Made by a program: the position numbers and the translations under genes
Source: Prevotella sp.
GTDB lineage: Bacteria > Bacteroidota > Bacteroidia > Bacteroidales > Bacteroidaceae
NCBI GenBank assembly: GCA_017477435.1
Contig: JAFUVV010000019.1
Coordinates: 1-37,831, forward strand
Direction: 5' to 3'
Length of the DNA stretch: 37,831 nt
Shown here: positions 16,851-36,039 of the stretch, one piece after another
Position numbering within the stretch: the stretch's first letter is position 1
Layout of the letters: each line of letters begins with the position of its first letter
Notes under the pieces: generated by a model
Told to the model about the DNA's origin: nothing
What the model saw: the letters and a program-made list of their open reading frames with translations, nothing else
The model's database searches: none

Positions 16851-16931
16851 TACATGGCTTTTGTACTCGCAGTACAAAGCCCATGTACTCGCAGTACAAA
16901 CGTCATGTACTCGCAGTACAAAGCCCATGTA
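16851..16931. repeat. Phased TACA/TGTA array (8 half-sites, 11-bp steps)
   Basis: Half-sites start at 16851, 16862, 16873, 16884, 16895, 16906, 16917 and 16928, alternating TACA and TGTA without a mismatch. Spacers are 7 nt; three are CTCGCAG and two are AAGCCCA (TGGGCTT on the other strand). It lies between the divergent glf and GH76 promoters. There are no unique spacers or cas genes, so it is not a CRISPR array. Confidence 0.9.
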
Positions 16932-17045
16932 CTTGCCCCTTCAGCATGCTATGAAACTAACAAGTTGACATGTCGGTAAAAATAAAAATACGGGTTGTTC
17001 AAATACTTTAACGTTAAAAGTTTCGCCGATTGAAATATTAATTGC

Positions 17046-17053
17046 TACTTTTG
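17046..17053 (+). promoter_or_regulatory. Promoter box of the GH76 gene
   Basis: TACTTTTG fits TAnnTTTG, 78 bp before the ATG. The leader between holds a GC-rich hairpin around CGCCCGTAGGCGGCGGGG. Sequence 16968-17045 shows nothing else recognisable. Confidence 0.45.
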
Positions 17054-17130
17054 CAGGTGTAAATTGGTAACTATGCGCTTTTCGCCCGTAGGCGGCGGGG
17101 AGCCGTGAATAACATCAGAACCTGAATTAG

Positions 17131-18630
17131 ATGAAAAAGAGAATCCTGACTGCGGTCGTTGCAGTCGTTGCATTTGCAGGAGTTCATGCCCAGAGCGGGC
17201 TGACGAGTGAGGAAATGGCAGTGAGAAACCTACAGCGCGCCATCGAACTGACCGACGGCATCTTCGACAAGATGTTCACCGTGAGCGGCGGTAAGCTGGC
17301 GTTCTACTATAACGCCACCACGGGCAAGGCATCCGACATCGTGTCGGTGTGGGAATACACGAGTGCGCTCGAGGCAACTAATTCGGTGCTCGAAGGCCTG
17401 ACGGCGCTAAAGGAGTCGCAGCCAGAGATATACGAAGCCAACTACGACAGATATGTCAAGCGTTTCAACGACCTGTACAGAGGCCTGCAGTATTATCGCG
17501 GAAAGTATACAGACAGTAAGCCGCTAATCTCATACACCGGCCCCAATGCGTGGGCAAATGTCTACGGTGTACACCGCGCCAACAGCATGGGAGGAGCAAA
17601 CGTGCAGGGAATAGAAAACGTGTACGACGACCAGATGTGGATCATCCGCGAACTCCTTCGCGCCTATAAGGTGACGGGAGTGGAGAATTATCTCAATATG
17701 GCTGAGAATCTCGCGGCCTATGTGCTCGACGGATGGGACTGCAACCTCAAGGCCGACGGCACAGAATACGGCGGCATCACATGGGGCCCAGGCTACACAT
17801 CGAAACACTCGTGCAGCAACGGACCGCTTATCTCACCGCTCGTATGGCTCAGCGAAATCTACAGCGAGGGAGAGAGAGCCGACGCCGATGTGACCTACTA
17901 TGCTCTCGACAAAGACGGACGACGCTACGAGGTGACAAAGAAGAAAGGAGAGTACTACCTCGACTTCGCCCGCAAGGTGTTCGACTGGCAGTACAACACC
18001 CTTCTCGACAGCGGGACAGGTGTGTTCTGGGACGCTGCATGGGCATCGACCGGCGACATTACCTACAGAGAGATCGACGGAGTGAAATACCGCGTACATC
18101 TCGATGTCGGAGGTGGCGGCGGCGACAAGTGGACCTACAACACCGGCGTGATGCTCTCAGGAGCCGCCGACCTCTATCGCGTCACCGGAGAGCAGACATA
18201 TCTGTTGAAACTGAAAAACATGAGCCTCAGAGCCCACGGCAATTTCTCGAGAGTCGTACGCGCTGACGGAGTGAGATACACACAGATGCTCTACGCCAAG
18301 AACAACTCTACGGGATGCAACGGCACACCGTGGTTCAACGATGTGCTCGAGCGAGGATACATAGCAGGAGCGGAATTTGTTGAGACAATGAAGGGCTACG
18401 TGGAAGAAGAGCAGAAATGCCTCGACTATGCCTACGACAACCATCAGATAGACGGCTTCATGCCCATCGACCTGATAAATGGATGGAACGACTCCGACGC
18501 ATCGAACCCCGAGGAGAATAAAATCCACGTGATGTACGCCCTGTCGCGCGCATCGGAATACGGCATGATGGTGAAATATCAGGCCGGTCTGACAGGCATC
18601 AAGGGCGTTGAGGCTGAAAAAAAAAACTAA
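17131..18630 (+). CDS. Secreted glycoside hydrolase family 76 (alpha-1,6-mannanase-like), sorting tail out of frame
   Basis: The 499-residue protein has a signal peptide (MKKRILTAVVAVVAFAGVHA) and the (alpha/alpha)6 barrel features of GH76: WEYTSALEA near 74, the catalytic Asp166-Asp167 pair in NVYDDQMW, and ITWGPGYTSKHSCSNGPL near 215-232. GH76 enzymes cut alpha-1,6-mannan backbones such as fungal mannan. The frame ends in a run of ten A (18617-18626). If one A is dropped, the frame continues to 18757 and encodes a tail (VDVYTVDGRHVR...GRGLYLVDGEKVAVR) closely like the C-terminal sorting tail of the next gene. So the tail is either lost by a frameshift, made by slippage on the A tract, or masked by a sequencing error. 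Confidence 0.9.
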   Translation: MKKRILTAVVAVVAFAGVHAQSGLTSEEMAVRNLQRAIELTDGIFDKMFTVSGGKLAFYYNATTGKASDIVSVWEYTSALEATNSVLEGLTALKESQPEIYEANYDRYVKRFNDLYRGLQYYRGKYTDSKPLISYTGPNAWANVYGVHRANSMGGANVQGIENVYDDQMWIIRELLRAYKVTGVENYLNMAENLAAYVLDGWDCNLKADGTEYGGITWGPGYTSKHSCSNGPLISPLVWLSEIYSEGERADADVTYYALDKDGRRYEVTKKKGEYYLDFARKVFDWQYNTLLDSGTGVFWDAAWASTGDITYREIDGVKYRVHLDVGGGGGDKWTYNTGVMLSGAADLYRVTGEQTYLLKLKNMSLRAHGNFSRVVRADGVRYTQMLYAKNNSTGCNGTPWFNDVLERGYIAGAEFVETMKGYVEEEQKCLDYAYDNHQIDGFMPIDLINGWNDSDASNPEENKIHVMYALSRASEYGMMVKYQAGLTGIKGVEAEKKN

Positions 18631-18757
18631 CGGCCAGGTAGACGTCTATACCGTCGACGGCCGCCACGTGCGCTCAAGTGTCAGTCGCCAAGACGCTACC
18701 GACGGACTCGGACGAGGACTGTATCTCGTCGACGGAGAGAAGGTAGCCGTCAGATGA
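18617..18757 (+). other. Out-of-frame C-terminal sorting tail of the GH76 gene after an A10 tract
   Basis: In the frame reached by removing one A from the ten-A run at 18617-18626, codons continue to TGA at 18755-18757. The encoded 40-residue tail matches the end of the neighbouring endonuclease (VYTVDGRHVR vs VYTADGRIVR; GLYLVDGEK vs GIYVVNGRK), the pattern of type IX secretion or surface tails in this group. The reading frame is conserved in sense, so the tail has not decayed beyond the single shift. Confidence 0.8.
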
Positions 18758-18861
18758 TGAAAACGGGAACGGAAACGTTAACGATAACGAAAGGACAAGT
18801 CCGAAGAGGCGATAACGATAGCGACTGCTAAATACGGAGAACGAGAAAATAATATATAGAA

Positions 18862-20628
18862 ATGAAAAGAATACTGACCTCTACAATCATTGCAATCTTT
18901 GTATCCCTCACTATATCGGCGCAGGGACCAAACAACACAGGCACCTACTACAAGAGTGCCAACGGAAAGAGCGGTGCAGCGCTGAAGACAGCCCTGGCCG
19001 GAATCGTCAACGGTGAGTACAATGGCACCAAATTCGCCCAGATGGAGTATGGCTCTGGCCGCCTGAACGGCGTCTGGGGAGCCTTCGCAACGACCGATGT
19101 GTTGTCCAACGGCACAACAATCCGCGACCGCTATTCGAACATTACGAAGTATACGGTGGGCGACGACCAAGGCTCAAGCAGCAGCACCGAGGCAACAGGC
19201 GGCTACAACCGCGAACACTCGTTCCCGAAGAGCTGGTTCGGAGGGAGCACTGCCAAAGGGCCGGGCACCGACTTGTTTCATATCTACCCGACAGACGTAT
19301 GGGTGAACAACATGCGCGGAAACCTTCCCTTCGGCGAAAACAAGGGAGAGGTAGGTCATTCCAGTGGTTATTATAGTAAGGTGGGCGAATGCACCGTCGA
19401 GGGTTCTGGCGGCGTGAGATGCTTCGAACCAAACGATGAATGGAAAGGTGACTTCGCAAGAGGCTATTTTTACATGGTCACTTGTTACGAGAGTAGTCTC
19501 GTTTCGTGGGGAAAGGCAGGCTCTACCATCAACGGAACCACATATCCCTCGTTCACAACATGGGCACTGAACATGCTGCTGAAATGGTCGAGAAACGACC
19601 CCGTCAGCGATATTGAGCGCGCCAGAAACGAAGCCGTGTGCCTGAAACAACACAACCGCAACCCGTTCATCGACTACCCGGGACTGGAAGAATATATCTG
19701 GGGAACAAAGACGTCTGTCGCATTCTCCTACGACAACTATGCCGAAGGCGGCGATACAGAAACACTCGTGGCTCCAACGTTCTCGCCAGCCGGAGGAACA
19801 TACTCGTCGACTCAGACCGTGAAGATAACTACACCAACCACCGGAGCCGAGATATATTACTCCGTCGACGATGAAGACTTCGAGCTCTACACCGAGCCGC
19901 TGACCGTCGCGAGCAGTTGCGTCCTGACAGCATTCGCACGTAAGGATGGAAAGAACAGCACCGTCGTGACTGAGGAATACGTCATCACCGGCGGCGGCGA
20001 TACACCCCCTCCGACAGGCAACACCTATGTGCTCGTCGAATCCGACGCCGACCTCACCATCGGTGGCGAGTATCTCATCGTCTGTGAAGGTTACAACAAG
20101 GCGCTGGCGGCCGCAAATGGTGATGTGCGTAAAGATGCCGACGTGACCATCACCGACAAGAAGATAGAGACAGAGACAGGCGGCATTCTGCCGCACAGAC
20201 TGCTTCTTGGCGGAACTGCAGGGGCTTATACTTTCCTAGACCAGGAGGATAAGACCTATCTGGCACTTACTTCCGACAAGAATAAGTTGGAGTCTGCATC
20301 TACGTTGTCCGATAATACGAGCTGGACAGTAGATATTAATGGCGGTGTTGCTTCAATATCAAACAAAGTTTATCCGAAACGGAGTATCAAGTATAATGCC
20401 GATTTTCCTCGCTTTGCTACATACATTACAGGGCAGCAGAGCGTCTCGCTCTATAAGCGTACGGGCAGCACAGGCATCGCCGACGTGGTGGGCGACGGTA
20501 TGAAAAAGGTGAATGTATATACCGCCGACGGCCGCATCGTTCGCAGAGGCGTGAAGGCACAGGACGCCATGCAGGGACTGAAGCCTGGCATATATGTCGT
20601 CAACGGACGTAAAATTCTGAAAAGATAA
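18862..20628 (+). CDS. Secreted endonuclease I-family nuclease with chitobiase-like domain and sorting tail
   Basis: The 588-residue protein has a signal peptide (residues 1-20). Residues about 25-290 match endonuclease I (EndA/NucM): NREHSFPKSWF with His119 as likely general base, GTDLFHIYPTD at 135-145, and NNMRGNLPFGE (149-159) providing metal ligands. A CHB_HEX-type beta domain follows (about 302-375, APTFSPAGGTYSSTQTVKI), then a strand-rich module (about 388-532) and a C-terminal sorting tail (VNVYTADGRIVRRG...GIYVVNGRKILKR). It degrades extracellular DNA or RNA, presumably at the cell surface. Bases about 20230-20450 are more AT-rich than the rest, matching the last module. It is preceded by a 104-bp gap with AACG-type short repeats. 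Confidence 0.9.
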   Translation: MKRILTSTIIAIFVSLTISAQGPNNTGTYYKSANGKSGAALKTALAGIVNGEYNGTKFAQMEYGSGRLNGVWGAFATTDVLSNGTTIRDRYSNITKYTVGDDQGSSSSTEATGGYNREHSFPKSWFGGSTAKGPGTDLFHIYPTDVWVNNMRGNLPFGENKGEVGHSSGYYSKVGECTVEGSGGVRCFEPNDEWKGDFARGYFYMVTCYESSLVSWGKAGSTINGTTYPSFTTWALNMLLKWSRNDPVSDIERARNEAVCLKQHNRNPFIDYPGLEEYIWGTKTSVAFSYDNYAEGGDTETLVAPTFSPAGGTYSSTQTVKITTPTTGAEIYYSVDDEDFELYTEPLTVASSCVLTAFARKDGKNSTVVTEEYVITGGGDTPPPTGNTYVLVESDADLTIGGEYLIVCEGYNKALAAANGDVRKDADVTITDKKIETETGGILPHRLLLGGTAGAYTFLDQEDKTYLALTSDKNKLESASTLSDNTSWTVDINGGVASISNKVYPKRSIKYNADFPRFATYITGQQSVSLYKRTGSTGIADVVGDGMKKVNVYTADGRIVRRGVKAQDAMQGLKPGIYVVNGRKILKR

Positions 20629-20657
20629 TTGTACCAATATAAATTAATTGTACTGAA

Positions 20658-21164
20658 ATGAAAGGAAGACATTTTGCAATCGCGATTGCTCTCGTTGCAA
20701 TCATCATGGCGGCATGCTCCACCTCGAAGCTTACCCCAGAGGAAAAGGCCGCACGGAAAATGCAGGTGGCACAGGCTGTGGCATCGGCCATCGACAACCG
20801 ACGCTTCAAGGTAGAAGTAAACTATATGAAGCCATTCCGCGGTCCTAACCGGCACCTGTCGTTCGGATACGAGATTCGGGTGTCGGGAGATACACTCTAC
20901 TCCTACCTGCCTTACTTCGGCGCAGCATACAATGTGCCCTACGGAGGCGGCAAGGGACTCAACTGGGAAGCACCGCTCACAGGGTATGAAGTGTCGGAGG
21001 GACGAAAGGGAGCAACCATCGTAGACATGACTGCCTACAACGGAGAAGATTATTTCCTCTACTCGCTCGAACTGATGCCCGACGGATCGGCATACCTCAA
21101 TGTGCGCTCACGCGACAGAGAACCAATATCATTCTCAGGTGACTTGGATCTTAGATATGAATAA
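20658..21164 (+). CDS. DUF4251 lipoprotein
   Basis: The 168-residue protein has a lipoprotein signal (IALVAIIMAACS, Cys20) and the Bacteroidetes DUF4251 pattern: an N-terminal helix (TPEEKAARKMQVAQAVASAIDNRRFKVEV is split here by family strands), NYMKPFRGPNRHLSFGYEIRV, SYLPYFGAAYNVPYGGGKGLNW, and a beta-rich end. Members are envelope proteins of unknown function. The stop (21162-21164) overlaps the start of the TonB_C gene by 8 bp, so the two are probably co-translated and may act together. Confidence 0.85.
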   Translation: MKGRHFAIAIALVAIIMAACSTSKLTPEEKAARKMQVAQAVASAIDNRRFKVEVNYMKPFRGPNRHLSFGYEIRVSGDTLYSYLPYFGAAYNVPYGGGKGLNWEAPLTGYEVSEGRKGATIVDMTAYNGEDYFLYSLELMPDGSAYLNVRSRDREPISFSGDLDLRYE

Positions 21165-22341
21165 GTCGCACGTACATATCCTCGCCCTCCTTCTCCTCTG
21201 CTGCGCCCAAGCATTCTCACAGGAGAAGAAGACCATCGTGGCCGACGGACTCTACTACTCTCCGCAGCCCGAACAGATCCATCATGGCATCTCGCATGTG
21301 AGCTATTTCAAGGAACACCTCTACTATCACCTCGGCGACGAACTGAACGTGATAGACATCGACGTGGAATGGCCCGACAAGGTCGACGGATCACTTGTCC
21401 GACCACTGCAGCATTTCCTGGCAGAGAAAATATTTAAAGTCGACGCCGACAACCTCACCGATGCCTACACGAAAATGAAAGCCCGATACGGCGAGCCCGT
21501 AAGGGAAAAGTTCAAGACCCTGCCCGACGACAGGAAATACTGCCACGTATCCTACGAACTGAAAGAGATGGGCTACGAACCTTCGAAGTACGTCTCCTAC
21601 ATCCTAACGTCTATCTCAGAGCCAAAAGAACTGTCGTCGCAAAAAGGCGACACCACCATCATGCTCCTCACCTACGACCTCGGACGACAGACAGTGCTCA
21701 CCATCGATGATATCATCCGCCGCTCACGCCTCGAAAGCAGCAACTACAGACGGCCATTCCTACGCATGCTCATCAACGGAGTAGGGGAGGAAGTGGAAGG
21801 AAATTACAACGCCATTCAGGTGATCGACGGATGCATCTCGGGAGAAGACATCCTGTTTAAAACCCTCTGGACAGGAGACAAGGACACCGTTTCCGTCGTC
21901 TCGGCAATACCATGGAACTGGTTGAAAGACTATCTCGACAAAAACCTGTATAAACAACTGCGCCGTCCCGCCGCAGCCATCGCCGACGAACCATACATCC
22001 TTCCGAAAGAGAAAGACGGACGACCCATCTACGTCGCCGTCGACCAAAATGCAGAATATCCGGGAGGACACGAAGCAATGATGAAATACGTCAGCTCCAC
22101 TATCGTCATCTCCGACGATGCACGGCCGAAGAAGAAACCCATAAGGTGCATCGCTACATTTATCGTCGACGAGAACGGACGCATCAGCGACGTGGCTGTC
22201 ATCAGTAAGGCAAATCCCGAGATCGACCGCGCCGTTGTCACTGCAATAAAGTCAATGCCACTCTGGAAACCAGCACAAGTAGACGGAAAAGCCGTAAAGC
22301 AACGCCTGAGCATCCCCATCCAGTTCCAACCCGAGAGATAG
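21157..22341 (+). CDS. Exported protein with C-terminal TonB_C domain
   Basis: The 394-residue protein begins with a cleavable-looking signal peptide (HILALLLLCCAQAFSQ). Residues about 40-300 show no family I recognise. The last about 90 residues are a TonB_C domain (EYPGGHEAMMKYVSS, CIATFIVDENGRISDVAVIS, DRAVVTAIKSMPLWKPAQVDGKAV). Unlike TonB it has no uncleaved membrane anchor and no proline-rich spanning segment, so it is unlikely to energise receptors directly; many Bacteroidetes proteins use this domain as a secreted module. Start ATG at 21157 is preferred over 21100, which would overlap the previous gene by 65 bp and place residues before the signal peptide. Confidence 0.82.
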   Translation: MNKSHVHILALLLLCCAQAFSQEKKTIVADGLYYSPQPEQIHHGISHVSYFKEHLYYHLGDELNVIDIDVEWPDKVDGSLVRPLQHFLAEKIFKVDADNLTDAYTKMKARYGEPVREKFKTLPDDRKYCHVSYELKEMGYEPSKYVSYILTSISEPKELSSQKGDTTIMLLTYDLGRQTVLTIDDIIRRSRLESSNYRRPFLRMLINGVGEEVEGNYNAIQVIDGCISGEDILFKTLWTGDKDTVSVVSAIPWNWLKDYLDKNLYKQLRRPAAAIADEPYILPKEKDGRPIYVAVDQNAEYPGGHEAMMKYVSSTIVISDDARPKKKPIRCIATFIVDENGRISDVAVISKANPEIDRAVVTAIKSMPLWKPAQVDGKAVKQRLSIPIQFQPER

Positions 22342-22352
22342 CCTGCTTGCAG

Positions 22353-22484
22353 TATCAGGTACGGATAGCAATGGTATCTGGGCTTGATACTGGTAGTATC
22401 TGCGTCTGATACCGACACTATCTGGGCTTGATACTACAGTTGTCGTGCATAGATAGTCGCACTATCAAAACCTGATAGTTGCAG
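22353..22484. repeat. Phased TATC/GATA array (12 half-sites, 11-bp steps)
   Basis: Six 22-bp units start at 22353, 22375, 22397, 22419, 22441 and 22463. Each has the form TATC-N7-GATA-N7 (one unit TGTC-N7-GATA). Two units use the spacer TGGGCTT, the same 7 nt found in the TACA/TGTA arrays. It lies between convergent genes, before a shared terminator. Confidence 0.88.
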
Positions 22485-22504
22485 CGAGAGATAATAATAT
22501 AAGT

Positions 22505-22545
22505 AACACCCCACTCTGTCGGTTGTGTCGGCAGGGTGGGGTGTT
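22505..22545. terminator. Bidirectional terminator-like hairpin between convergent genes
   Basis: A 14-bp stem AACACCCCACTCTG / CAGGGTGGGGTGTT with a 13-nt loop. Flanks are only moderately T-rich, so termination strength is uncertain. Confidence 0.6.
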
Positions 22546-22571
22546 ATCGTTGTTAGTTATTTGTTATGATG

Positions 22572-23324
22572 TCAGATGTCGAGGGTGAGTTCGACGGGGC
22601 AGTGGTCGGAGCCGAGGATGTCGGTGTGTATCTTCGCGTCTGTGATGTTCGGTCTGAGGTTGTCCGACGTGAGGAAATAGTCTATTCGCCATCCTGCGTT
22701 CTTTTCGCGGGCGTGGAAGCGGTAGGACCACCATGAGTATGTTTCTTGGTCGGGGTGTTTCCATCGGAAGGTATCGGTGAATCCGCTGCCGAGGAGTGTG
22801 GTCATTTTCTGTCGCTCTTCGTCGGTGAAGCCGGCGTTGTGGCGGTTGGCTTTCGGGTTTTTGATATCGATTTCCTCGTGTGCCACGTTGAGGTCGCCGC
22901 ATACGATGACGGGTTTTTTCTCGCTGAGCTGGAGGAGGAACTGTCGGAAGTCGTCTTCCCAGCGCATGCGATAGTCGAGTCGTCGCAGGCCGTCTTGTGA
23001 GTTTGGCGTGTAGACGGTGACGAGGTAGAACTGCGCCATTTCGAGGGTGATGATCCTGCCTTCGTGGTCGTGCTCGTCTATTCCCATTCCGAGTTTTACG
23101 CTGAGCGGTGTGTGGCGGGTGAAGATGGCTGTGCCGGAGTAGCCTTTTTTGTCGGCGTAGTTCCAGTATGACTCGTAGCCGTCGAGGTTGAGCGACAGTT
23201 GTCCTTCCTGCATCTTTGTCTCCTGCAGGCAGAAGAAGTCGGCGTCGAGAGAAGTGAAGGCATCAGTGAATCCTTTGCCGACGCACGCTCTGAGTCCGTT
23301 GACGTTCCAAGAGATGAATTTCAT
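22572..23324 (-). CDS. xth: Exodeoxyribonuclease III (AP endonuclease, ExoIII family)
   Basis: The 250-residue protein is a full-length ExoIII-type enzyme for base excision repair, cleaving DNA 5' to abasic sites. Visible catalytic residues: Asn7 in WNVNGLRA, Glu in CLQETK (about 35), Tyr in TVYTPN (about 105), GDLNVAHEEIDI (Asp/Asn near 143-145), and SDHCPVEL at the C-terminus with the catalytic His. The DNA-binding loop WWSYR is present. The start ATG at 23324 is the only sensible one. Monocistronic by layout, with a shared terminator downstream. Confidence 0.95.
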   Translation of the reverse strand: MKFISWNVNGLRACVGKGFTDAFTSLDADFFCLQETKMQEGQLSLNLDGYESYWNYADKKGYSGTAIFTRHTPLSVKLGMGIDEHDHEGRIITLEMAQFYLVTVYTPNSQDGLRRLDYRMRWEDDFRQFLLQLSEKKPVIVCGDLNVAHEEIDIKNPKANRHNAGFTDEERQKMTTLLGSGFTDTFRWKHPDQETYSWWSYRFHAREKNAGWRIDYFLTSDNLRPNITDAKIHTDILGSDHCPVELTLDI

Positions 23325-23483
23325 TTTAAATGAAGAGTAAATGTTGAGGGATGAAGATTAAAGATTGAGGTATGCTTTTAGCCACTCCTCTGAGGAGGGA
23401 ATTTTTTTGAGCAGCGTCCGCGAGGGATGTCTCCTCTCGCTGACGGTATTTCCTCTCCTCAGGGCTGGCTTTGGGAGCGTTTT

Positions 23484-24122
23484 TTACTTCTGTCCTACGA
23501 CGAGGAATGGTATTGGCTCGATGGCGTATGTCTGCTGGTTGACGGTTACGCTTCCGATGGGCAGATATCCGTTGGCTCCTCCTCGGTCATATACTCCATA
23601 GGAAACGACGTTGAGTGTGTAGAAGTAGCTTGCCGATGTTGTGAACTTGACTTCTACTTCGTAGGTCTGATCTTCGTATGCGCATGTGAACTTCAGGTAT
23701 GATGCTGGGTAGAGGTAGTATCCGTATGTTGTCGAGCTGTTTTCTCCGTAGATGTCGTTGAGCAGTATCTTGAATGTCACTTTCTTTGGTCCTGCATTCT
23801 TGAGTGCTTCGATGAGTTTTGTGTCGCTCTTGTCTCTTACGGCGTAGCTGAGGAAGCTGACGGGCAGGTTTACGGTGAGCAGTGAGTCGCGTCCGCTTAT
23901 TGAGAATGTTGTCTCGGTGGAGTCGCTTTTCACTTTGTAGTCTTCGTTGTAGAAGGCGTAGGCTTTTCCTTGGTATGTGCCGTTCATTATGTTCAGGCGA
24001 CGTGCTGCTTCTTCTGGGGTGACGGTGATGTTATCCTCGTCGTCGTCGAGACATGATGTGAAACTTGTTGCAACGAGTGTGCAACCTACTAATACCATGA
24101 ATAGATTTCTTAAATTTTTCAT
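23484..24122 (-). CDS. DUF4840-like lipoprotein
   Basis: The 212-residue protein has a lipoprotein signal ending TSFTSC (Cys24) followed by an acidic stretch (LDDDEDN), a common surface-export pattern for Bacteroidetes lipoproteins. The body (NGTYQGKAYAFYN, LLTVNLPVSFLSYAV, GYYLYPASYLKFTC, PIPFLVVG) is beta-rich and resembles DUF4840 envelope proteins, an uncertain assignment. Function is unknown. It follows folE by 71 bp on the same strand and may be read from the same transcript. 23325-23483 shows only short G/C-rich inverted bits near 23390-23400. Confidence 0.75.
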   Translation of the reverse strand: MKNLRNLFMVLVGCTLVATSFTSCLDDDEDNITVTPEEAARRLNIMNGTYQGKAYAFYNEDYKVKSDSTETTFSISGRDSLLTVNLPVSFLSYAVRDKSDTKLIEALKNAGPKKVTFKILLNDIYGENSSTTYGYYLYPASYLKFTCAYEDQTYEVEVKFTTSASYFYTLNVVSYGVYDRGGANGYLPIGSVTVNQQTYAIEPIPFLVVGQK

Positions 24123-28639: not shown

Positions 28640-28647
28640 ATTGACTG

Positions 28648-28734: not shown

Positions 28735-28855
28735 AAAAGTTAGTGCAAACCGAGGACAGAACAAAATAAATTTATTTATTTTTTATGTTGATGCGCAGCC
28801 TAACTTCTTCGTCTATGTGTGGAAAAGTTAGTGCAAACCGAGGACAGAAACAAAA
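28735..28855 (-). repeat. Two degenerate upstream copies of the promoter module
   Basis: TAACTTTT boxes at 28735-28742 and 28823-28830 (minus strand) are preceded by TTTTG at 19 and 20 nt, in a duplicated block sharing GTTAGTGCAAACCGAGGACAG. CTAACTT further left pairs with AAGTTAG, so each copy can also form a hairpin. The last base of the -7 box is T in place of G. Confidence 0.6.
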
Positions 28856-28977
28856 GACGTGTTGTTGGGAAAAGCGCAGATATTCACTGCGGATTATTGC
28901 CGTCGGCAGGCCTGCACGGCTTTCTTCCTTAGCTGAAAAAGCCATGTCGGGATGTCAGGTGGTTGGGTCGGGCGGAG

Positions 28978-29065
28978 TACATGGGCTTTGTACTCTCAGT
29001 ACATTGGCCTTGTACTCGGAGTACAAGAACGTTGAACTTGCAGTACATGGGCTTTGTACTGCGCC
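28978..29065. repeat. Phased TACA/TGTA array (8 half-sites, 11-bp steps)
   Basis: Half-sites start at 28978, 28989, 29000, 29011, 29022, 29033, 29044 and 29055; seven fit TACA/TGTA exactly and one is TGAA. TGGGCTT fills the first and last loops. It lies between divergent genes, 155-245 bp before the aldo/keto reductase promoter. Confidence 0.88.
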
Positions 29066-29195
29066 CGTCAGTTTCCCTTGGCGACGGAGGGGGATAGACT
29101 GACCGCAGCCGACTCGGCATGTTGCTCGTCGGTCTCGGGCTTGGCGGTAATCCATAAAAACGGAAATTTTTGAAAAAATAACCGCAGTTTTGGTT

Positions 29196-29226
29196 TTTGA
29201 GAATGGTGTTTTTTGTCGTAACTTTG
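29196..29226 (+). promoter_or_regulatory. Promoter of the aldo/keto reductase operon
   Basis: TTTG (29196-29199), 19 nt, TAACTTTG (29219-29226), 31 bp before the ATG. Confidence 0.7.
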
Positions 29227-29257
29227 CCGTCGGAACAATCTAAAACATAATAAAATC

Positions 29258-30097
29258 ATGAAAGAGGTAGTTTTGAATAATGGAGTGCGTATGCCGATTC
29301 TCGGCTACGGAGTATATCAGGTGGACCCTCGTGAGGCCGAGCGTTGCGTGAGTGATGCCCTCAGCGTGGGCTACAGAATGATTGACACTGCCCAGGCCTA
29401 CAACAATGAGGAGGGTGTGGGCAATGCTGTCAGGAAAAGCGGACTGCAGAGAGACGAAGTCTTCCTCGTCTCGAAGGTGTGGATATCAAATTATGGCTAT
29501 GAGAAGGCAAAGGCGAGCATCGACGACAGCCTGCGCCGGTTGCAGACCGACTACATCGACCTCATGCTCCTTCACCAGCCTTTCTGCGACCGCTATGGTG
29601 CCTACCGCGCACTGGAAGAGGCCTACGGCGAAGGCAAGCTGAGGGCCATCGGAGTGTCGAACTTCTATCCCGACCATCTGATTGACTTGGCCATGAACGT
29701 CGACGTACGCCCGATGGTGAATCAGGTGGAGACCCACGTGTTCAACCAGCACCGTCAGGACAGGAAGTTCATGGAAGAACTCGACTGCCGCATCATGTCG
29801 TGGGGACCGCTTGCCGAAGGACGCAACGGACTCTTCACCAACCCCGTGCTCGCCGAGATAGGAAACGCGCATGGTAAGTCGGTGGCACAGGTGGCACTGC
29901 GATTCCTGCTCCAGGACGGAGTGATAATCATACCGAAGTCGGTGCACAAGGAGCGCATGGAGCAGAACCTCAGCCTTTTCGACTTCGAACTCACGGCCGA
30001 CGAAATGGCACGGATAGAGACGCTCGACACTGCGAAGAGCCTGTTCTTCGACCATCACGACGGAGAAGTGACGAAGATGTTCATGGGATGGAGATAA
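29258..30097 (+). CDS. Aldo/keto reductase
   Basis: The 279-residue protein is a standard NAD(P)H-dependent aldo/keto reductase of the 2,5-diketo-gluconate reductase type. The catalytic set is visible: Asp and Tyr in MIDTAQAYNNE (about 42-52), Lys in FLVSKVW, His in LMLLHQP. IGVSNFYPDHL and the C-terminal IIIPKSVHKERMEQN form the cofactor-binding part. No signal peptide. It opens a tight plus-strand operon with a flavodoxin lipoprotein (33 bp) and a CMD-cupin protein. Confidence 0.93.
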   Translation: MKEVVLNNGVRMPILGYGVYQVDPREAERCVSDALSVGYRMIDTAQAYNNEEGVGNAVRKSGLQRDEVFLVSKVWISNYGYEKAKASIDDSLRRLQTDYIDLMLLHQPFCDRYGAYRALEEAYGEGKLRAIGVSNFYPDHLIDLAMNVDVRPMVNQVETHVFNQHRQDRKFMEELDCRIMSWGPLAEGRNGLFTNPVLAEIGNAHGKSVAQVALRFLLQDGVIIIPKSVHKERMEQNLSLFDFELTADEMARIETLDTAKSLFFDHHDGEVTKMFMGWR

Positions 30098-30130
30098 TTC
30101 AATAGGAAGACATATAAAAACGAGAAACTT

Positions 30131-30757
30131 ATGAAGACATTTTTATTAGCCGCACTGACCATGCTCTTCAGCATGTCGTGCAACGGAAACAACAGCGGCG
30201 AGACATCGAAAGCCGAAACGGCTGCCGCTCCCGAGACAGCTGCAGCAAAGGGAAAAGCGCTGATCATATACTTCTCACATGCCGGCGAGAACTACAGTGT
30301 TGGCAACATCGAGGTGGGCAACACAAAGATTGTGGCCGACTATATCAGCGAGATTACCGGCGCTGACCAGTTCGAGATTGTCTGTGAGAAAGACTACGAC
30401 ATGCCTTACGACAAACTTATCGAGGTGGCTAAGAAAGAGGCAAACGACGGTGAACTGCCTGCTTACAAAGGCAAAGTGGAAAACCTTGGCGACTACGACA
30501 CTGTGTTCATCGGTGGCCCGATATGGTGGGGAACCTACCCTCAGGTGATGTTTACCTTCTTCCGCGACAACGATCTCAGCGGCAAGACAATCTTCCCATT
30601 CACCACTCACGAAGGCAGTGGACTCGGATCGACGGTGAAAGACCTGAAGAAAGCTTATCCGAAAGCCGATATCAAAGAAGGATTCTCGATGTATGGTCAC
30701 GACGTGAGAAAAGGTCGCGACAGAGTGGAGAAATGGCTGAAACGGATTGGTTTTTAA
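30131..30757 (+). CDS. Flavodoxin-family lipoprotein
   Basis: The 208-residue protein has a lipoprotein signal (LLAALTMLFSMSC, Cys17), a Ala/Glu-rich linker, and a flavodoxin-like domain: IIYFSHAGENYSVG (FMN phosphate loop) at about 45, VFIGGPIWWGTYPQVM near 130, and FPFTTHEGSGLGST near 157. The lipid anchor outside the cytoplasm is unusual for classic flavodoxins but common for this Bacteroidetes subfamily, suggesting a flavoprotein reductase in the envelope. It lies 11 bp before the CMD-cupin gene. Confidence 0.88.
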   Translation: MKTFLLAALTMLFSMSCNGNNSGETSKAETAAAPETAAAKGKALIIYFSHAGENYSVGNIEVGNTKIVADYISEITGADQFEIVCEKDYDMPYDKLIEVAKKEANDGELPAYKGKVENLGDYDTVFIGGPIWWGTYPQVMFTFFRDNDLSGKTIFPFTTHEGSGLGSTVKDLKKAYPKADIKEGFSMYGHDVRKGRDRVEKWLKRIGF

Positions 30758-30768
30758 GCAGATAACAA

Positions 30769-31872
30769 ATGAAAAGAATAATCCTCAGCCTGGCAGCAGT
30801 ACTCATGTTGTCGGGCTTTCAAGCTAAAGCACAAGAAATGATGAAGTTATCCGAACGACAGAAATCGCTTGTGGCAATTGCTGCCATGGAAGCGAAAGGC
30901 AATATCAATGGTCTGAAAACAGCTCTTGACCGCGGTTTTGACAACGGTCTCACGGTGAGCGAGGCAAAAGAGGCACTCTCGCAACTATATGCTTATACAG
31001 GTTTCCCACGCTCTCTAAACGCTTTGGGCGCACTCCAGCAGGTGCTGGCAGAGCGGCGTATGGCAGGTAAGACAACAGATGAGGGACGCGAGGCAAACCC
31101 TGTTGCGCCCGACTACGATGCACTTAAGCAGGGCACCGAGGTGCAGACACGGCTCTCGGGGGCTCCATTTAACTACACATTCGCACCGCAAACCGACTAT
31201 TATCTGAAGGCTCACCTCTTCGGAGACATCTTTTCGCGCGACAATCTATCGTTTGCCGACCGCGAGATAGTCACCGTCAGTGCCATCTCCGCACTTCCCG
31301 GATGCGAGCCACAACTGTCGGCTCACGTCAGAGGAGCAGTGAACATGGGCGTCGACCCTGATCAGCTGCGCGAGATACCCGCCGTGCTCAGCGAGCGAGT
31401 GGGAGAGGAGGAAAGTGTCCGTGCTGCAAAGGCAGTGGCAGCATTCTTCGGAGAGAAAGCCGACGGCGTGGCCACAGTCGACTTCACAGTGTGGCCAAAA
31501 GGCGAGCTGAACACCGCCTACGCGCAGTATTTTATCGGCAACAGTTATCTCTATCCCCTTTCAGCAGAGCAGGGTGGGCCAGTGAATGTGACGTTTGAGC
31601 CACGTTGCCGCAACAACTGGCACATCCACCATAGCCAGGTGCAGGTGCTCGTATGTGTGGCAGGGCGTGGATGGTATCAGGAGTGGGGCAAGGAGCCGAT
31701 TGAACTGAAGCCAGGCACTGTCGTAGCCATACCTGCCGAGGCTAAGCACTGGCACGGTGCGGCACGCGACTCATGGATGCAACATCTCACCTACCACACG
31801 CATGTCGAGGCTGGTGCATCGAACGAGTGGCTCGAACCTGTTGGCGATGACATATACGACAGACTGCCATAG
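30769..31872 (+). CDS. Exported carboxymuconolactone decarboxylase-cupin fusion protein
   Basis: The 367-residue protein has a signal peptide (MKRIILSLAAVLMLSGFQAKA), two CMD/AhpD-like helical repeats (about 28-100, QLYAYTGFPRSLNALGALQQVL; about 145-230, ADREIVTVSAISALPGCEPQLSAHVRGAVNMG) and a C-terminal cupin (about 265-355) with metal-binding histidines in NNWHIHHSQVQVLV and KHWHGAARDSW. The AhpD-type CxxC is absent; only one cysteine is near the second repeat site. Such proteins are often annotated as cupins linked to quinone or thiol chemistry. With the aldo/keto reductase and flavodoxin it suggests an envelope detoxification or redox operon. Confidence 0.88.
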   Translation: MKRIILSLAAVLMLSGFQAKAQEMMKLSERQKSLVAIAAMEAKGNINGLKTALDRGFDNGLTVSEAKEALSQLYAYTGFPRSLNALGALQQVLAERRMAGKTTDEGREANPVAPDYDALKQGTEVQTRLSGAPFNYTFAPQTDYYLKAHLFGDIFSRDNLSFADREIVTVSAISALPGCEPQLSAHVRGAVNMGVDPDQLREIPAVLSERVGEEESVRAAKAVAAFFGEKADGVATVDFTVWPKGELNTAYAQYFIGNSYLYPLSAEQGGPVNVTFEPRCRNNWHIHHSQVQVLVCVAGRGWYQEWGKEPIELKPGTVVAIPAEAKHWHGAARDSWMQHLTYHTHVEAGASNEWLEPVGDDIYDRLP

Positions 31873-31948
31873 GCGGGATGTAGTAAAAGATTAATATCTC
31901 GGATATGATTTTTCGTTATATTTATTAGGTAGTATCGATAAATCTTAT

Positions 31949-31956
31949 TAATTTTG
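31949..31956 (+). promoter_or_regulatory. Promoter box of the M49-like lipoprotein gene
   Basis: TAATTTTG, 67 bp before the ATG. It is followed by CACGCG, the same 14-base run (TAATTTTGCACGCG) as in front of the CCA gene. No clear -33 box. Confidence 0.45.
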
Positions 31957-32023
31957 CACGCGCTTATTTAAAGCATGCAAAAAGTCGATGAACGGATAAG
32001 ATTACGATAACACTTTTAACAAT

Positions 32024-33628
32024 ATGAAAAAGACATTATTTATCTCTGCCATTGCTCTGCTGGCAATGGTTTCATGCAATCAAAAGCAGACATCTCCATT
32101 TGAATGGAACACCTCTAAGTATGATGTAGTGGATATTGAAGTCCCCGACCTTAGCGGTATTTCAGACAATGGCAAGGAGGTGCTTAATCTGTATCGTTTC
32201 GCTGCCGATGAGGTAAACGATATCTATTGGAAACAATATTTCGGTGACAAGACATCTCTCTTAGAGAATATCACCGACTCTGTTGAGAAGACATTTGTCG
32301 AAATCAACTACGGTCCTTGGGATCGTCAGACAGGAAAGGCATTTGTCGGTGGTTACGACGACCGCACCCCGGGCGCTGGTTTCTACCCTGCTGACATGAC
32401 TGCCGAGGAGTTCGAAGCCTACAACAACCCCGACAAGAACAGCCCATACACGTTGATACGCCGTGCTGAAGACGGTTCTTTGCAGACAGTGTGGTATCAC
32501 GAAGCTTTTGCTGAGAACATAGAGAAGATTGCCAACTATCTTAACGCAGCTGCGGACATCACCATCAAGCCCAGTGTGAGGAACTATCTGCTGAGCAAAA
32601 TCGAGGCTCTCCGCACCGACAAATATTACGACAGCGGCATCGCATGGCTGGATATGAACGACAGCAAGATGGACTTGGTAATCGGTCCTAACGAAGCTGC
32701 TGACGACCAGTTGATGGGACTCAAGCGCTCTTACGAGGCATTCGTGCTGCTCAAGAACGAAGCTCGCACCAACGAACTGATGGAGTTTGTATCACGCATC
32801 GGCGATTTCCAGAATGATCTCCCAGGCGAAGAGGCTTACAAAGCCTTCCAGCCAGGCGCAGGTTCGAACATCTTCTCATGCGACGCACTCTACTATGCCG
32901 GCAAGGCAAATGCAGGCGTGAAGGTCATCGCGCTCAATCTTCCATTCGATACCGACGTGCAGCGCGATAAGGGAACACGCACTATCCTCTTGGATAATGT
33001 CATTAAGGCAAAGTACAACAACATCATAGTTCCTGCCGCACAGGTGCTGCTCAATAACGAAGCAACCGAAAGCCTGTTACAGGAAGCCTTCTACTGGAAC
33101 ATCGTGTTCCGCGAGGTGGCCCATGGACTTGGCGTTAAGGAGACCGTCAACGGCAAGGGTAGCGTAGAGAAGGCACTGGCAGGTGCTGCTCCTACTCTCG
33201 AAGAAGTAAAGGCCAACACAGCCGGTGTGCTGCTCGTATGCCAGCTGCAGAAGCACTTCGACATACATCACATCTTTGCCAAGAAAGAGGCTCTCACCAC
33301 ATACTTCGTATCTCTCGTGCGTTCGGAGCGCTTTGGCGAAGGCTCATCGCTGGGTCGTGCCAACATCATTATCTACAACTACCTTAAGGAAGCAGGTGCT
33401 TTCGAGCGCAAAGTGTCGGGCAAGTACACCCTCAATCTCGAGAAGATGGAGCAAGCACTCTCTGACCTCACCGCCCTTGTGCTCAAGATACAGGCAACAG
33501 GCGATAAAGTAGCTGCTGATGAACTGGAGGCTAAATACTCCAAGATGTCTGCCGATACTGAGGATGATATGAGAAATCTCGTTATCGGTAAAGTGCCATA
33601 CGACATCCGCTTTAACTTCAAGAAATAA
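32024..33628 (+). CDS. M49 (dipeptidyl peptidase III)-like lipoprotein lacking the first zinc histidine
   Basis: The 534-residue protein has a lipoprotein signal (LLAMVSC, Cys18). The body follows the M49 plan seen in Bacteroidetes: NYGPWDRQTGKAF near 95, FQPGAGSNIF near 276, an NIxxREVAHGLG block where HExxH is expected, then LEEVKANTAG (about 392-401), equivalent to the EECRA-type third-ligand motif. Here the first His of HExxH is Arg363 (codon CGC); Glu364, His367 and Glu393/394 remain. Without that ligand zinc binding and peptidase activity are doubtful. It is monocistronic, with a strong terminator after it. Confidence 0.8.
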   Translation: MKKTLFISAIALLAMVSCNQKQTSPFEWNTSKYDVVDIEVPDLSGISDNGKEVLNLYRFAADEVNDIYWKQYFGDKTSLLENITDSVEKTFVEINYGPWDRQTGKAFVGGYDDRTPGAGFYPADMTAEEFEAYNNPDKNSPYTLIRRAEDGSLQTVWYHEAFAENIEKIANYLNAAADITIKPSVRNYLLSKIEALRTDKYYDSGIAWLDMNDSKMDLVIGPNEAADDQLMGLKRSYEAFVLLKNEARTNELMEFVSRIGDFQNDLPGEEAYKAFQPGAGSNIFSCDALYYAGKANAGVKVIALNLPFDTDVQRDKGTRTILLDNVIKAKYNNIIVPAAQVLLNNEATESLLQEAFYWNIVFREVAHGLGVKETVNGKGSVEKALAGAAPTLEEVKANTAGVLLVCQLQKHFDIHHIFAKKEALTTYFVSLVRSERFGEGSSLGRANIIIYNYLKEAGAFERKVSGKYTLNLEKMEQALSDLTALVLKIQATGDKVAADELEAKYSKMSADTEDDMRNLVIGKVPYDIRFNFKK

Positions 33629-33661
33629 AGAATCATTCGCCATATAGCGATTAAATACCAG

Positions 33662-33701
33662 TACGAGGGGTATGCACGAACAAGCATACCCCTCGTATTT
33701 T
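33662..33701 (+). terminator. Terminator of the M49-like gene
   Basis: A perfect 14-bp stem (TACGAGGGGTATGC / GCATACCCCTCGTA), 8-nt loop, then TTTTATT. Confidence 0.85.
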
Positions 33702-33795
33702 ATTCACCTACCTGCTACACACTACTCCCTCACACCGTGCTTGGGCGCCCAATGCTGCATCATCTTACGGCAGCAAGGAAGAAGCACAACGAAAA

Positions 33796-33876
33796 AATTT
33801 GCTAGCAAAATTTCCATTAACTGGGCACTTTATTGGCATTAAAGAGCCTCTTTATTCGAAATTTTGCTAGCAAAAT
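33796..33876. repeat. AT-rich phased array with GCTAGC ends
   Basis: In 11-bp steps the words AATT, AAAA, TAAC, TTTA, TAAA, TTTA, TTTT, AAAT alternate with 7-nt spacers (TGCTAGC, TTTCCAT, TGGGCAC, TTGGCAT, GAGCCTC, TTCGAAA, GCTAGCA). The spacers TGGGCAC and TTGGCAT resemble those of the arrays at 8970 and elsewhere. Both ends hold the palindrome TTTTGCTAGCAAAA or a close variant. Confidence 0.5.
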
Positions 33877-33920
33877 TATCAGCCAGACAATGGCAGGGGG
33901 ATTGTTGGCAAGGGTTTTTC

Positions 33921-34769
33921 CTATTTCATGCGGTAGGTTAAGTGCCAAACGGGTGAGATGTCGATGACGATGTCGCCGTTAATCATGTACGTCTTCCAAG
34001 GCTTTATCTTCTTCAGCGCCTTCTCCATGTCGGATGCTATTGCGCGGTGAGCGGTGCCCTTCTTCTTATCAGTGAATGGGGTAGCGATGACTTTGCACGA
34101 AAGCAGTTCGCCTTTCTTGTTGAACTTCATGCCTTCTATCTTGAAGTCAACGCGGTCGCATCCTTTCAGATTGGCATACTTCTCGGGATGTATGTCGATT
34201 TTTTTCCACAGGTCATCGTATTTTGTACCTCTAATGGTGAACCCATTGGTTAGCATGCTGTTGTTGCATCGCTGCATCTTCACCACCTCTCCGTTCTTCA
34301 CGTCGATGACGATCTCGTGCTCTAAGTAGCGATAAAAAGCCGAGTGTTCGTAGAGGAGTGTCTTCCCATTTGCAGCCCTGACGGTGCCTGAAAACCACGA
34401 AGCGACCACATTGTCGGCAGTGGTGTATTTGGCGAAAATGTCGTCAATGACATCCTTGGCGACCTTCTCTGTTTTATACTCGCCGCGTTTATCGGTGTAC
34501 ATTTCCACTATCATGCTGTCGAGCACGAGCTTATTCGCTTTTATGCTCCAGCATCCGATGAGCCCATCCCAGTTGGCAGTGCTCTTTACTCTTTTCTCGG
34601 GCAGCATCGAAAGCAGTCGTTTGCCGTCGATAGCCTTGTTGGCAGCTGGGCGTGCAAGGAGTTCCATTTTCACGCCGTCGATATATATAATGTCACCTTC
34701 CTGCCCTGTTGCCCAAGAGGAAACTGTGGAGAGGAGTATGAGTGAAATAAAGGAAATAATCTTTTTCAT
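33921..34769 (-). CDS. Exported protein of unknown function
   Basis: The 282-residue protein has a signal peptide (MKKIISFISLILLSTVSSWA). No family is recognised. The middle part is beta-rich (GLIGCWSIKANKLVLDSMIVEMY; HEIVIDVKNGEVVKM), and the C-terminal segment (GELLSCKVIATPF, AIASDMEKALKKIKPWKTYMINGDIVID) has the strand-helix-strand look of a TonB_C-like module with the PWK position, a tentative comparison. It converges with the M49-like gene. Codon use is similar to neighbours. Confidence 0.7.
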   Translation of the reverse strand: MKKIISFISLILLSTVSSWATGQEGDIIYIDGVKMELLARPAANKAIDGKRLLSMLPEKRVKSTANWDGLIGCWSIKANKLVLDSMIVEMYTDKRGEYKTEKVAKDVIDDIFAKYTTADNVVASWFSGTVRAANGKTLLYEHSAFYRYLEHEIVIDVKNGEVVKMQRCNNSMLTNGFTIRGTKYDDLWKKIDIHPEKYANLKGCDRVDFKIEGMKFNKKGELLSCKVIATPFTDKKKGTAHRAIASDMEKALKKIKPWKTYMINGDIVIDISPVWHLTYRMK

Positions 34770-34943
34770 AATGGTAGTTTTTTGACGAATTTACGAATTA
34801 ACGGATTAACAAAATAACGAGCGCGTGGAGGTTAGATGTCTTGCAACTCCCTTAACTCCTTGTCTTCTCGTCATCTTCAATTTGCAAAGTTATTTTTATT
34901 TTTATATATCTACAAATGTTTTTATCATTTTTATACCTTGATT

Positions 34944-34976
34944 TTTGTGATTTGCCGGCAAATAGTGCTATTTTTG
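34944..34976 (+). promoter_or_regulatory. Promoter of the CarbopepD_reg-like gene
   Basis: TTTG (34944-34947), 21 nt, TATTTTTG (34969-34976). It lies within the frame extension upstream of ATG 34985, so the shorter start is right and the leader is almost absent. Confidence 0.6.
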
Positions 34977-34984
34977 CATCGGAT

Positions 34985-35914
34985 ATGAAGAGTAAGGTAA
35001 TCAGAACGATAGTGTTGTGTCTGTCGCTGATATCGTGGGCGCTTTGCGTTGATGCGCAGCGTAGGATAGAGGTGAGGGACAGTGTGACGGGTGAGCCGAT
35101 ACCATATGCAAGTGTTTACTTTGGCAATCGGTCGGGGAGTTACACTGATGTTGACGGTGTGGTGGAGATACCTGTCGATGCTTCTGAGATGCGCCTTTCG
35201 CATATAAGTTATGAGACAAAAAGCCTCGCGGTTGCATCATCGGAAGACGATGTGGTACGGATGGCTCCAACGAGTGTCACGTTAAGCGAGTTGAGTGTTG
35301 ACGGCAAGGCTCCTAAGAGGATTTCGACGGAGAGTGTGGGGAATATGAAAGCGAAGACGCACACCGTGCATAAGGGTGCCAACGGGTTCGAGATGGCATT
35401 GTTTATCCCATACGACAGTGCCTGGACAGAGCCGCCTTACATCCACTCCATACTGGCAAGCCTCGACTACTCAACCCGTTGGTTGGTTTTCAGAGAGATA
35501 GAGAAGCCGATTTATGCGACGCTGCGATTCGACTTGCGCTTGCCCGATGCGGTGACAGATGCACCTTGCGCTGAGTCGTTGATAGGTGGCGGAATACTTA
35601 AGGAAGCAGGGGAAAGAGTGGATAAGAAAGGCGTGAGTCTGGTGAGGCCTATTCCTTTTCCCACCACGGGCGTATTCGTTGTGGTGGAATGGATTACGAC
35701 AGCTCGGGTGTCGGAGTCGGAGAGTCTGGTCCCATCGCTTGGCATGACTCTTGATGGAACAGGAGGCACTACGTGGAACAAAAAGACTTTCATGGGTATG
35801 GGTTGGATGATGGAGCAGAATGAGCCGATATATAGCGACGGATACACGCAGGAACTCTACAAATGGCGCACTCCATCGGCTAAGCTCGGGCTGGCGATTT
35901 CGAGGAAGAAATGA
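34985..35914 (+). CDS. Exported carboxypeptidase-regulatory-like domain protein
   Basis: The 309-residue protein has a signal peptide (VIRTIVLCLSLISWALCVDA) and an N-terminal CarbopepD_reg_2 domain (about 26-105): RRIEVRDSVTGEPIPYASVYF, GSYTDVDGVVEIPVDA, MRLSHISYETKSL. The rest (about 110-309) is a beta-rich domain also seen after this module in Bacteroidetes envelope proteins (IPYDSAWTEPPYIHSI, LVRPIPFPTTGVFVVVEW). It is far too short to be a SusC/TonB receptor, of which this domain is usually the N-terminus. Function unknown. Start chosen from the promoter position. Confidence 0.82.
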   Translation: MKSKVIRTIVLCLSLISWALCVDAQRRIEVRDSVTGEPIPYASVYFGNRSGSYTDVDGVVEIPVDASEMRLSHISYETKSLAVASSEDDVVRMAPTSVTLSELSVDGKAPKRISTESVGNMKAKTHTVHKGANGFEMALFIPYDSAWTEPPYIHSILASLDYSTRWLVFREIEKPIYATLRFDLRLPDAVTDAPCAESLIGGGILKEAGERVDKKGVSLVRPIPFPTTGVFVVVEWITTARVSESESLVPSLGMTLDGTGGTTWNKKTFMGMGWMMEQNEPIYSDGYTQELYKWRTPSAKLGLAISRKK

Positions 35915-35951
35915 TTCGTATGGCGGTGACATCTATCTCATCTGCCTGCAG

Positions 35952-36039
35952 TATATGGGCTGTGTACTGGCGATACATGGGCTTTGTACTGGTGGTACAT
36001 GGGCTTTGTACTGGCAGTACATGGGCTTTGTACTGGCGA
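35952..36039. repeat. Phased TACA/TGTA array (8 half-sites, 11-bp steps)
   Basis: Four 22-bp units start at 35952, 35974, 35996 and 36018, of form TACA-TGGGCTT-TGTA-CTGGCAG with small changes (first half-site TATA). It is the most regular copy of the family. It is followed at 36046-36080 by 8-bp (A/G)TTAACGG-like words. Confidence 0.9.

Follow-up and report, generated by a model that had tools for sequence, protein, structure and literature searches.

Intergenic arrays of four palindromes in register with a 22-bp sequence lattice in a Prevotella genome

A stretch of 37,831 nt from contig JAFUVV010000019.1 of Prevotella sp. (assembly GCA_017477435.1, coded G000 below; 2.32 Mb in 62 contigs, 78% complete), here called the window, contains three arrays in which the words TACA and TGTA alternate. 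Sequence statistics with controls establish that these belong to an intergenic element that recurs in the genome, usually with a fixed count of four palindromes, and that the arrays keep register over kilobases with a 22-bp lattice in the surrounding DNA, and also with one another. Regularly repeated arrays in step with such a lattice suggest a bacterial form of regularly packaged DNA. The original prediction of these arrays knew of no named element with this form, and that statement stands: no account of such arrays, or of a kilobase-coherent 22-bp register, was recognised in the open-access literature searched.

Anatomy and settings of the arrays

Direct reading of the window located the three arrays at the positions predicted for them, each with eight half-sites at 11-bp steps, and a three-word form of the pattern occurs 14 times in the window, whereas 100 dinucleotide shuffles averaged 0.01 matches and never exceeded 1. 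The predicted alternation of TACA and TGTA is real, with a true half-site of six letters (AGTACA/TGTACT) rather than four, such that the unit is a 19-bp palindrome, AGTACA-N7-TGTACT, plus a 3-bp spacer, giving a pitch of 22 bp and half-sites every 11 bp. Two of the window's arrays are flawed, array 2 having TGAA instead of TGTA in one half-site and array 3 opening with TATA rather than TACA. Over the whole genome a four-word pattern gives 405 overlapping matches, versus 0 for a reversed-pattern control.

Arrays were surveyed in 1,126,416 bp (49% of the assembly, window included), a non-random sample whose first stretches were drawn from contigs with listed matches; an array was counted if it had at least four good arms, which excluded seven chains with fewer in the first 754 kb. 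This yielded 84 TACA arrays, 81 with 8 half-sites, two with 5, and one with 10. A word-free scan for shape in the first 410,674 bp found 38 palindrome chains at a pitch of 22 bp and none or one at each of eight other pitches. The arms hardly vary (53 arrays have 55 deviations among their 2544 letters), and the seven central bases, W-R-R-N-Y-Y-W, are palindromic and less conserved than the arms, an arrangement like that of the operator of a dimer. The three spacer bases are loosely constrained and mostly G and C. A weak outer dyad (YGGCNGC 5′ of the array, GCNGCCR 3′) brackets the arrays, and beyond it only the lattice is seen.

With genes predicted by a home-made script, none of the 84 arrays overlaps a gene by more than 20 bp, and the intergenic location predicted for the window thus extends to the family. 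Proximity to gene starts, also predicted, is true of the window's three arrays and not of the family as a whole: where both neighbouring genes could be seen (81 arrays), 44 are between tandem genes (start/end), 23 between divergent genes (start/start), and 14 between convergent genes (end/end), roughly the proportions among all intergenic regions 100 bp or longer (250 tandem, 77 divergent, 63 convergent). A reading as promoter elements only is ruled out by the arrays between convergent gene ends. Among intergenic regions 150 bp or longer, 80 of 322 contain one array and none contains two.

A 22-bp register in the surrounding DNA

Pyrimidine-purine (YR) steps persist at fixed residues of the 22-bp register into the array flanks. 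Anchored on 81 arrays at a period of 22.0, the YR excess has a z-value of 22.3 at 0–215 bp beyond the array and, counted in coding DNA only, of 13.9 at ~0.2–0.9 kb, 8.2 at 0.9–1.9 kb, and 3.9 at 1.9–3.4 kb, all z-values assuming independent positions; periods of 21.9 and 22.1 give no YR signal from 0.2 kb outward. The suggestion that all half-sites face the same side of the DNA is thereby supported and widened, the arrays being in register with the 11/22-bp lattice of the surrounding genes. Where coding DNA is farther than 1 kb from any TACA array, its top autocorrelation lags include 44, 66, 88, 110, and 132 bp (also 14 and 21), lag 22 itself being missing among them; pooled relatives lack the multiples of 22.

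The register of an individual array can be predicted from its flanks. In a leave-one-out test, a dinucleotide profile from the other 80 arrays and flanks of 200–1500 bp gave the exact register of the held-out array for 58 of 81, versus a mean of 3.4 and a maximum of 8 for random intergenic anchors (20 sets here and below). With flanks of 1000–2500 bp, 37 of 81 registers were exact (random mean 3.5, maximum 7), and 66 were predicted with an error of no more than 1 bp (random mean 10.6, maximum 18). Coherence also holds between neighbouring arrays (46 pairs, 2.9–32 kb apart), at a period of 22.007 and with a mean cosine of 0.593; the maximum was 0.438 in 1000 control sets in which arrays were shifted inside their own intergenic regions.

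The lattice was also decoded continuously along the sequence, using a profile learned from G000 array flanks that was held out only in the leave-one-out tests and reused elsewhere (for the decode, the non-TACA arrays, and the G+C-phase bins). With TACA arrays masked and non-TACA arrays left in place, decoding of five whole or partial contigs keeps a single offset for up to 17 kb, with single-base drifts, and matches 22 of 26 eight-arm arrays exactly; the window's three TACA arrays fall exactly on the decoded lattice. The profile contains the flanks of all these arrays. Decode scores per kb are +1.7 to +9.2 at six G000 loci versus −1.4 to −2.6 at eight control loci of relatives. The lattice is not universal in G000: decoding is poor in the first 8.7 kb of the window, in the opening ~14–15 kb of contigs C2 and C4, and in further stretches. 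The segments lacking a decodable lattice at window 1–8700, L110 1–15000, and L138 1–14000 are perhaps horizontally acquired DNA.

A kilobase-coherent 11-bp rhythm in G+C content, with arrays masked, is clear in G000 and in six other genomes (G016, G393, G313, G004, G010, and G028), at periods of 10.96–11.02. A rhythm near 11.03 is suggested in 20 kb each of G003 and G026, is doubtful in G078, and is absent from G001, G385, and G404. Pooled 3-kb loci of the genus show the rhythm, both the 19 from genomes without TACA matches and the 14 from genomes with them; six 3-kb loci from other genera of the order show no pooled rhythm, and neither do 77 pooled loci of named relatives (mean 1.01 at 11.00; top single z 3.4, at an Alistipes locus). 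Measured in 4-kb windows with arrays unmasked, the rhythm is weak in 200 kb of E. coli K-12 (1.93 versus a background of 1.18), and the same measure gives 2.97 versus 0.84 in G000 (2.45 versus 0.80 with arrays masked) and 12.6 versus 0.9 in G016. The rhythm of G016 (L286–L290), whose assembly is a single contig, is the strongest found, and no palindrome chain is present in the 100 kb of that genome examined. Arrays share a G+C phase in G000 (n=84, R 0.64, 0.2 bp), in G313 (n=24, R 0.83, 0.1 bp), and in G393 (n=5, R 0.81, 0.1 bp). Rhythm and arrays are thus linked in phase where this is demonstrable, and each can occur without the other.

Within genes the register is carried mainly by codon steps 2-3 (z 9.8) and 3-1 (z 9.3), with step 1-2 giving z 2.7. 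When synonymous codons are shuffled, the G+C power at 11 bp falls from 5.75 to 1.28 in G016, from 6.15 to 1.87 in G393, and from 4.02 to 1.52 in G313, with G004 (1.91 to 1.26) and G000 (1.28 to 0.99) as weaker cases; there is no 11.0 peak in the 17 coding windows of G010 and none in G001. Periodicity at the protein level as the cause of the rhythm is ruled out by this shuffling in G016, G393, and G313, and the lattice is written in DNA, not protein, mostly at synonymous sites.

Other arm words and features of the window

The word-free scan also found chains in G000 with STATC, ATAA, ATTAAA, and other arms at the same 22-bp pitch, and the register of 23 non-TACA arrays agrees with the lattice exactly in 13 cases and to within 1 bp in 18. 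In the TATC arrays (e.g. L111 12347–12453) Watson-Crick pairing is avoided at the first base of the arms (G with T, A with C), which pairs in 39% of cases within units (114 units, 51% expected) and in 25% between units (91 neighbour pairs, 49% expected); the second base covaries equally across N7 and N3.

A five-word TACA pattern is matched in 56 of 398 genomes of the genus (G000 included), the reversed control giving 0 in every row; an earlier set of 60 genomes had matches in G000, in 3 of 35 other genus members, and in 0 of 24 genomes outside the genus. Arms are species-specific within the genus, with TTACA, CTACA, and GTACA among them. Chains recognised by shape only and built of other arms are present in G393 (7), G385 (6), and G404 (5), and the single ones in G001, G004, and G010 are possibly due to chance. 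Named relatives have no pitch-22 chain in 1.2 Mb of 80 loci, where other pitches gave one to three; tandem hairpin arrays at pitches of 18, 21, and 26 bp are present in relatives (L031 16851–17060, L046 18064–18120, L026 4273). G003 and G026 each have a TTACA array (L127 ~10007, L128 ~9977) in a matching place, with nearly identical loops and just upstream of a gene that we take, from its sequence, to be NqrB-like; this array is conserved between the two species.

Table 1. Palindrome arrays and decoded lattice in the 37,831-nt window
Feature	Coordinates	Strand	Basis or remark
TACA array 1: four AGTACA-N7-TGTACT palindromes, N3 spacers	16849..16933		pattern match
TACA array 2: four units, one damaged half-site (TGAACT)	28976..29060		pattern match
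TACA array 3: four units, first half-site AGTATA	35950..36034		pattern match
Six-unit array with another word, STATC-N7-GATAS, pitch 22 bp	22351..22479		between convergent genes
Two AAAATTTGCTAGCAAAATT-type palindromes flanking two ATTAAA-type units, pitch 22	33794..33878 (approx.)		decoded lattice offset 3, by hand, unmasked
Degenerate array of four units at pitch 22, with arms ATTAAC/GTCAAA/CTTAAA and loops GGGCCCA	8968..9052 (approx.)		last unit by eye
Continuous 22-bp lattice decode, TACA arrays masked, offsets 20,21,0,1,2,3,2,3	15218..37831		profile learned from all array flanks

Array 1 lies between divergent genes, one UDP-galactopyranose mutase-like and the other GH76-like; array 2 is also between divergent genes, with an aldo/keto reductase gene downstream; and array 3 is between two + strand genes, with a polyA-polymerase/tRNA nucleotidyltransferase-like gene downstream. 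The register of the STATC array equals the decoded lattice offset 0, and the degenerate array lies on offset 15, both worked out by hand with the arrays unmasked in the decode; a separate flank-only prediction at the STATC array is weak (shift 1, margin 2.2).

Palindromes of the form AATTTTGCTAGCAAAATT near ATTAAA-type units, at pitch 22, are also present at L122 ~17352, L124 ~12913, and L142 ~13404, and this combination may be either a separate type of node (as defined below) or an element resembling a miniature inverted-repeat transposable element (MITE). A ~50-bp sequence (AACTTCTT...AAAAGTTAGTGCAAACCGAGGACAGA) occurs twice, by eye, within 28700–28860 of the window, and letters resembling it are found close to L109 2427 and directly following the L107 array at 19541.

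Interpretations and known systems

The explanation that we favour, and to which we give about an even chance on the sequence evidence, is that the arrays are high-affinity nodes of a putative DNA-bending or DNA-wrapping nucleoid protein that would form a regular 22-bp chromosome lattice with one dimer per 22 bp, i.e. per two helical turns of 11 bp. Within a node, each dimer would recognise a single 19-bp palindrome by way of its two half-sites, which are 11 bp apart and face the same side of the DNA, and four adjacent dimers with eight DNA-binding domains would occupy ~85 bp, which would explain the palindrome count of four. From the node the register would continue weakly into the neighbouring DNA, where bendable YR steps and alternating G+C-rich and A+T-rich faces would favour the same setting, mostly at synonymous positions. 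We infer that a protein makes the lattice, that the same protein would bind the arrays and wrap the DNA, and that the nodes would nucleate or anchor the lattice. By analogy, a tetramer of Lrp/AsnC-type dimers, or a multimer of the p6 type from phages phi29 and GA-1, would have the right geometry.

More tentatively, and with appreciably less confidence, we propose that much of the chromosome could be a nucleoprotein fibre with a two-turn repeat, its register encoded in the DNA (within genes, by synonymous codons), set by intergenic four-dimer nodes, and kept in phase for at least 10 kb. If so, selection would act against small insertions and deletions that shift the register, and codon choice and indels would be subject to a constraint outside gene-based models. 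It has long been asked whether bacterial chromosomes carry a packaging code in their sequence, and the 11-bp bias known so far has been described as short-ranged and is hard to tie to any element; a discrete, countable node in register with a kilobase rhythm makes the question testable. Node DNA could be used to capture the putative protein, whose contact positions the lattice predicts to the base.

Several observations weigh against a node-forming nucleoid protein. The pooled YR signal at a fixed period is lost beyond ~3.4 kb (z −0.6, 1.9, and −2.3), and the raw windowed YR power spectrum of G000 has no 22-bp peak, unlike the array-anchored tests. The YR pattern of G000 is not repeated in G313, five G028/G313 loci score only −1.4 to +0.3 per kb with the G000 profile, and the arrays of G028 (n=8), G385 (n=5), and G078 (n=4) have no significant register. 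Rhythm and arrays are separable, with rhythm and no chains in G016 and chains without rhythm in G385 and G404. No gene could be tied to the arrays when the presence of the Lrp/AsnC and HU families was compared, and neither family gained support as the source of the responsible protein: Lrp/AsnC genes (PF01037) are present in 32 of 32 genomes, one to three in each, and HU/DNABII genes (PF00216) in 30 of 30, with neither the presence of the former nor the counts of the latter linked to arrays. One of the three AsnC genes in G000 has an array upstream, which is within chance, given the one-in-four base rate; the TACA array at L190 6189–6273 lies ~165 bp upstream of an Lrp/AsnC-type gene.

Other observations touch on the HU/IHF proteins. 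G003 has 17 matches to the HU/IHF family PF00216 versus 2 in G000. DNABII proteins (HU/IHF) kink DNA at a 9-bp spacing, and YR steps are 9 bp apart in the array flanks of G000 but 7 bp apart near G313 arrays.

It is also conceivable, if rather unlikely, that the rhythm is a passive feature of naked DNA, from phased curvature of negatively supercoiled DNA or from face-biased mutation, and that the arrays are ordinary multi-dimer regulator sites, active only at a matching rotational setting. Rhythms of ~11 bp at third codon positions are known in bacteria (PMC4132750, as far as its available text goes), G016 has the rhythm but no arrays in 100 kb, the G+C amplitude of G016 is similar in coding and intergenic DNA, and E. 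coli has a weak signal of the same kind. The register between arrays many kilobases apart is left unexplained by a passive rhythm plus a regulator, as is the array in a quarter of intergenic regions irrespective of gene orientation, and the YR register is two-turn (22 bp), not merely 11 bp.

We regard as less probable again that the arrays are ordinary operators of a global transcription factor with a large regulon, the long-range register being secondary. Their half-sites are conserved like those of operators and are intergenic, and Lrp-like proteins are described as binding palindrome clusters two or three turns apart (PMC2995911, available text). Opposed to this are the 14 of 81 arrays between two gene ends, the orientations that follow those of intergenic regions at large, and the single register shared by different words; moreover, operators do not predict a rhythm inside genes.

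An origin as mobile or copied repeats, either REP-like (repetitive extragenic palindromic) elements or MITEs of the BrickBuilt kind, is very improbable. The arrays are dispersed, intergenic, and internally tandem, they have the short outer dyad, and units inside one array are more alike than random units (4.10 versus 3.58 of 7). However, flanks are non-homologous beyond the dyad and the lattice, unit order is not preserved between arrays (loop similarity 3.57/7 for the same index versus 3.50/7 for other indices), the closest array pair agrees at 32 of 37 variable positions versus 28–33 in shuffles, the arrays are in register with distant DNA, and viral contigs have no exact two-unit AGTACA match. 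A copy-and-paste origin is rejected because there is no copy signal between arrays. Like REP-like elements, which are linked to a RAYT transposase, the arrays are extragenic repeated palindromes.

The other alternative in the original prediction, hairpins in RNA (here four in tandem, with 6-bp stems and 7-nt loops), fares worst and is hardly credible: complementarity is maintained between families with different arms and, among the 55 arm deviations, 19 still allow a G-U wobble on the strand read, but 34 break a pair and only two, in one unit, form a compensated pair (wobbles and breaks recounted by hand), the TATC arms covary equally across N7 and N3 in their second base and are anti-complementary in their first, a scan of the window alone gave no Rfam match at gathering score, and register with coding DNA is a property at the DNA level.

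Among described repeats, the BrickBuilt MITE of Porphyromonas gingivalis (PMC4596501) is intergenic and dispersed in 19 copies of short tandem 23-nt units, as the arrays are intergenic, dispersed, and composed of short tandem units. In the available text of that source, BrickBuilt consists of direct repeats with a leader, a tail, and terminal repeats like those of insertion sequences (IS), unrelated in sequence to the arrays and without a fixed count of four palindromes. Terminal inverted repeats or related copies of this type were not found around the arrays, which have only the weak dyad of ~7 bp and unrelated flanks, IS ends themselves not having been searched.

Ordinary genomic 11-bp periodicity ("class A flexible patterns", or the structural code of cyanobacteria) is described, in the available texts, as fuzzy (10–12 bp) and gone beyond ~70–100 bp (PMC1242344), and as a bias ~100 bp long that prefers third codon positions (PMC4132750). 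A bias along the whole length of some chromosomes is also described (PMC3431218, available text), which differs from keeping phase. The lattice described here differs from such periodicity, with its fuzzy period and correlation lost beyond ~100 bp, in having a period of 22.00/11.00 (10.96–11.02 in congeners), in being coherent over kilobases, and in being tied to nodes.

Three protein systems offer parallels, each as described in the available text of its source. RemA forms an octameric ring that binds poorly conserved repetitive DNA and is proposed to wrap DNA round the octamer (PMC8481266); it acts at biofilm promoters in Bacillus. Lrp/AsnC proteins form multimers of dimers that occupy groups of palindromic sites two or three turns apart on the same helical face (PMC2995911); in one case three dimers wrap ~100 bp of DNA around themselves (PMC2995911), and the octamer consists of four dimers (PMC8481266). 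The arrays likewise have palindromes on one face at two-turn spacing; the presence of Lrp/AsnC genes shows no link to the arrays, and a chromosome-wide sequence register was not found reported for Lrp/AsnC in the literature searched. In the p6 proteins, the DNA wraps a multimer that recognises a pattern of bendability and assembles from nucleation sites, a dimer occupying each 24 bp in phi29 and a monomer each 11 bp in GA-1 (PMC10899789), the latter corresponding arithmetically to a dimer every 22 bp. The sequence of G000 carries bendability signals in a two-turn register along long DNA, on which a putative protein would sit as one dimer per two turns; p6 acts on a small phage genome with few recognition regions and reads no specific sequence, whereas the arrays have conserved words in sets of four palindromes.

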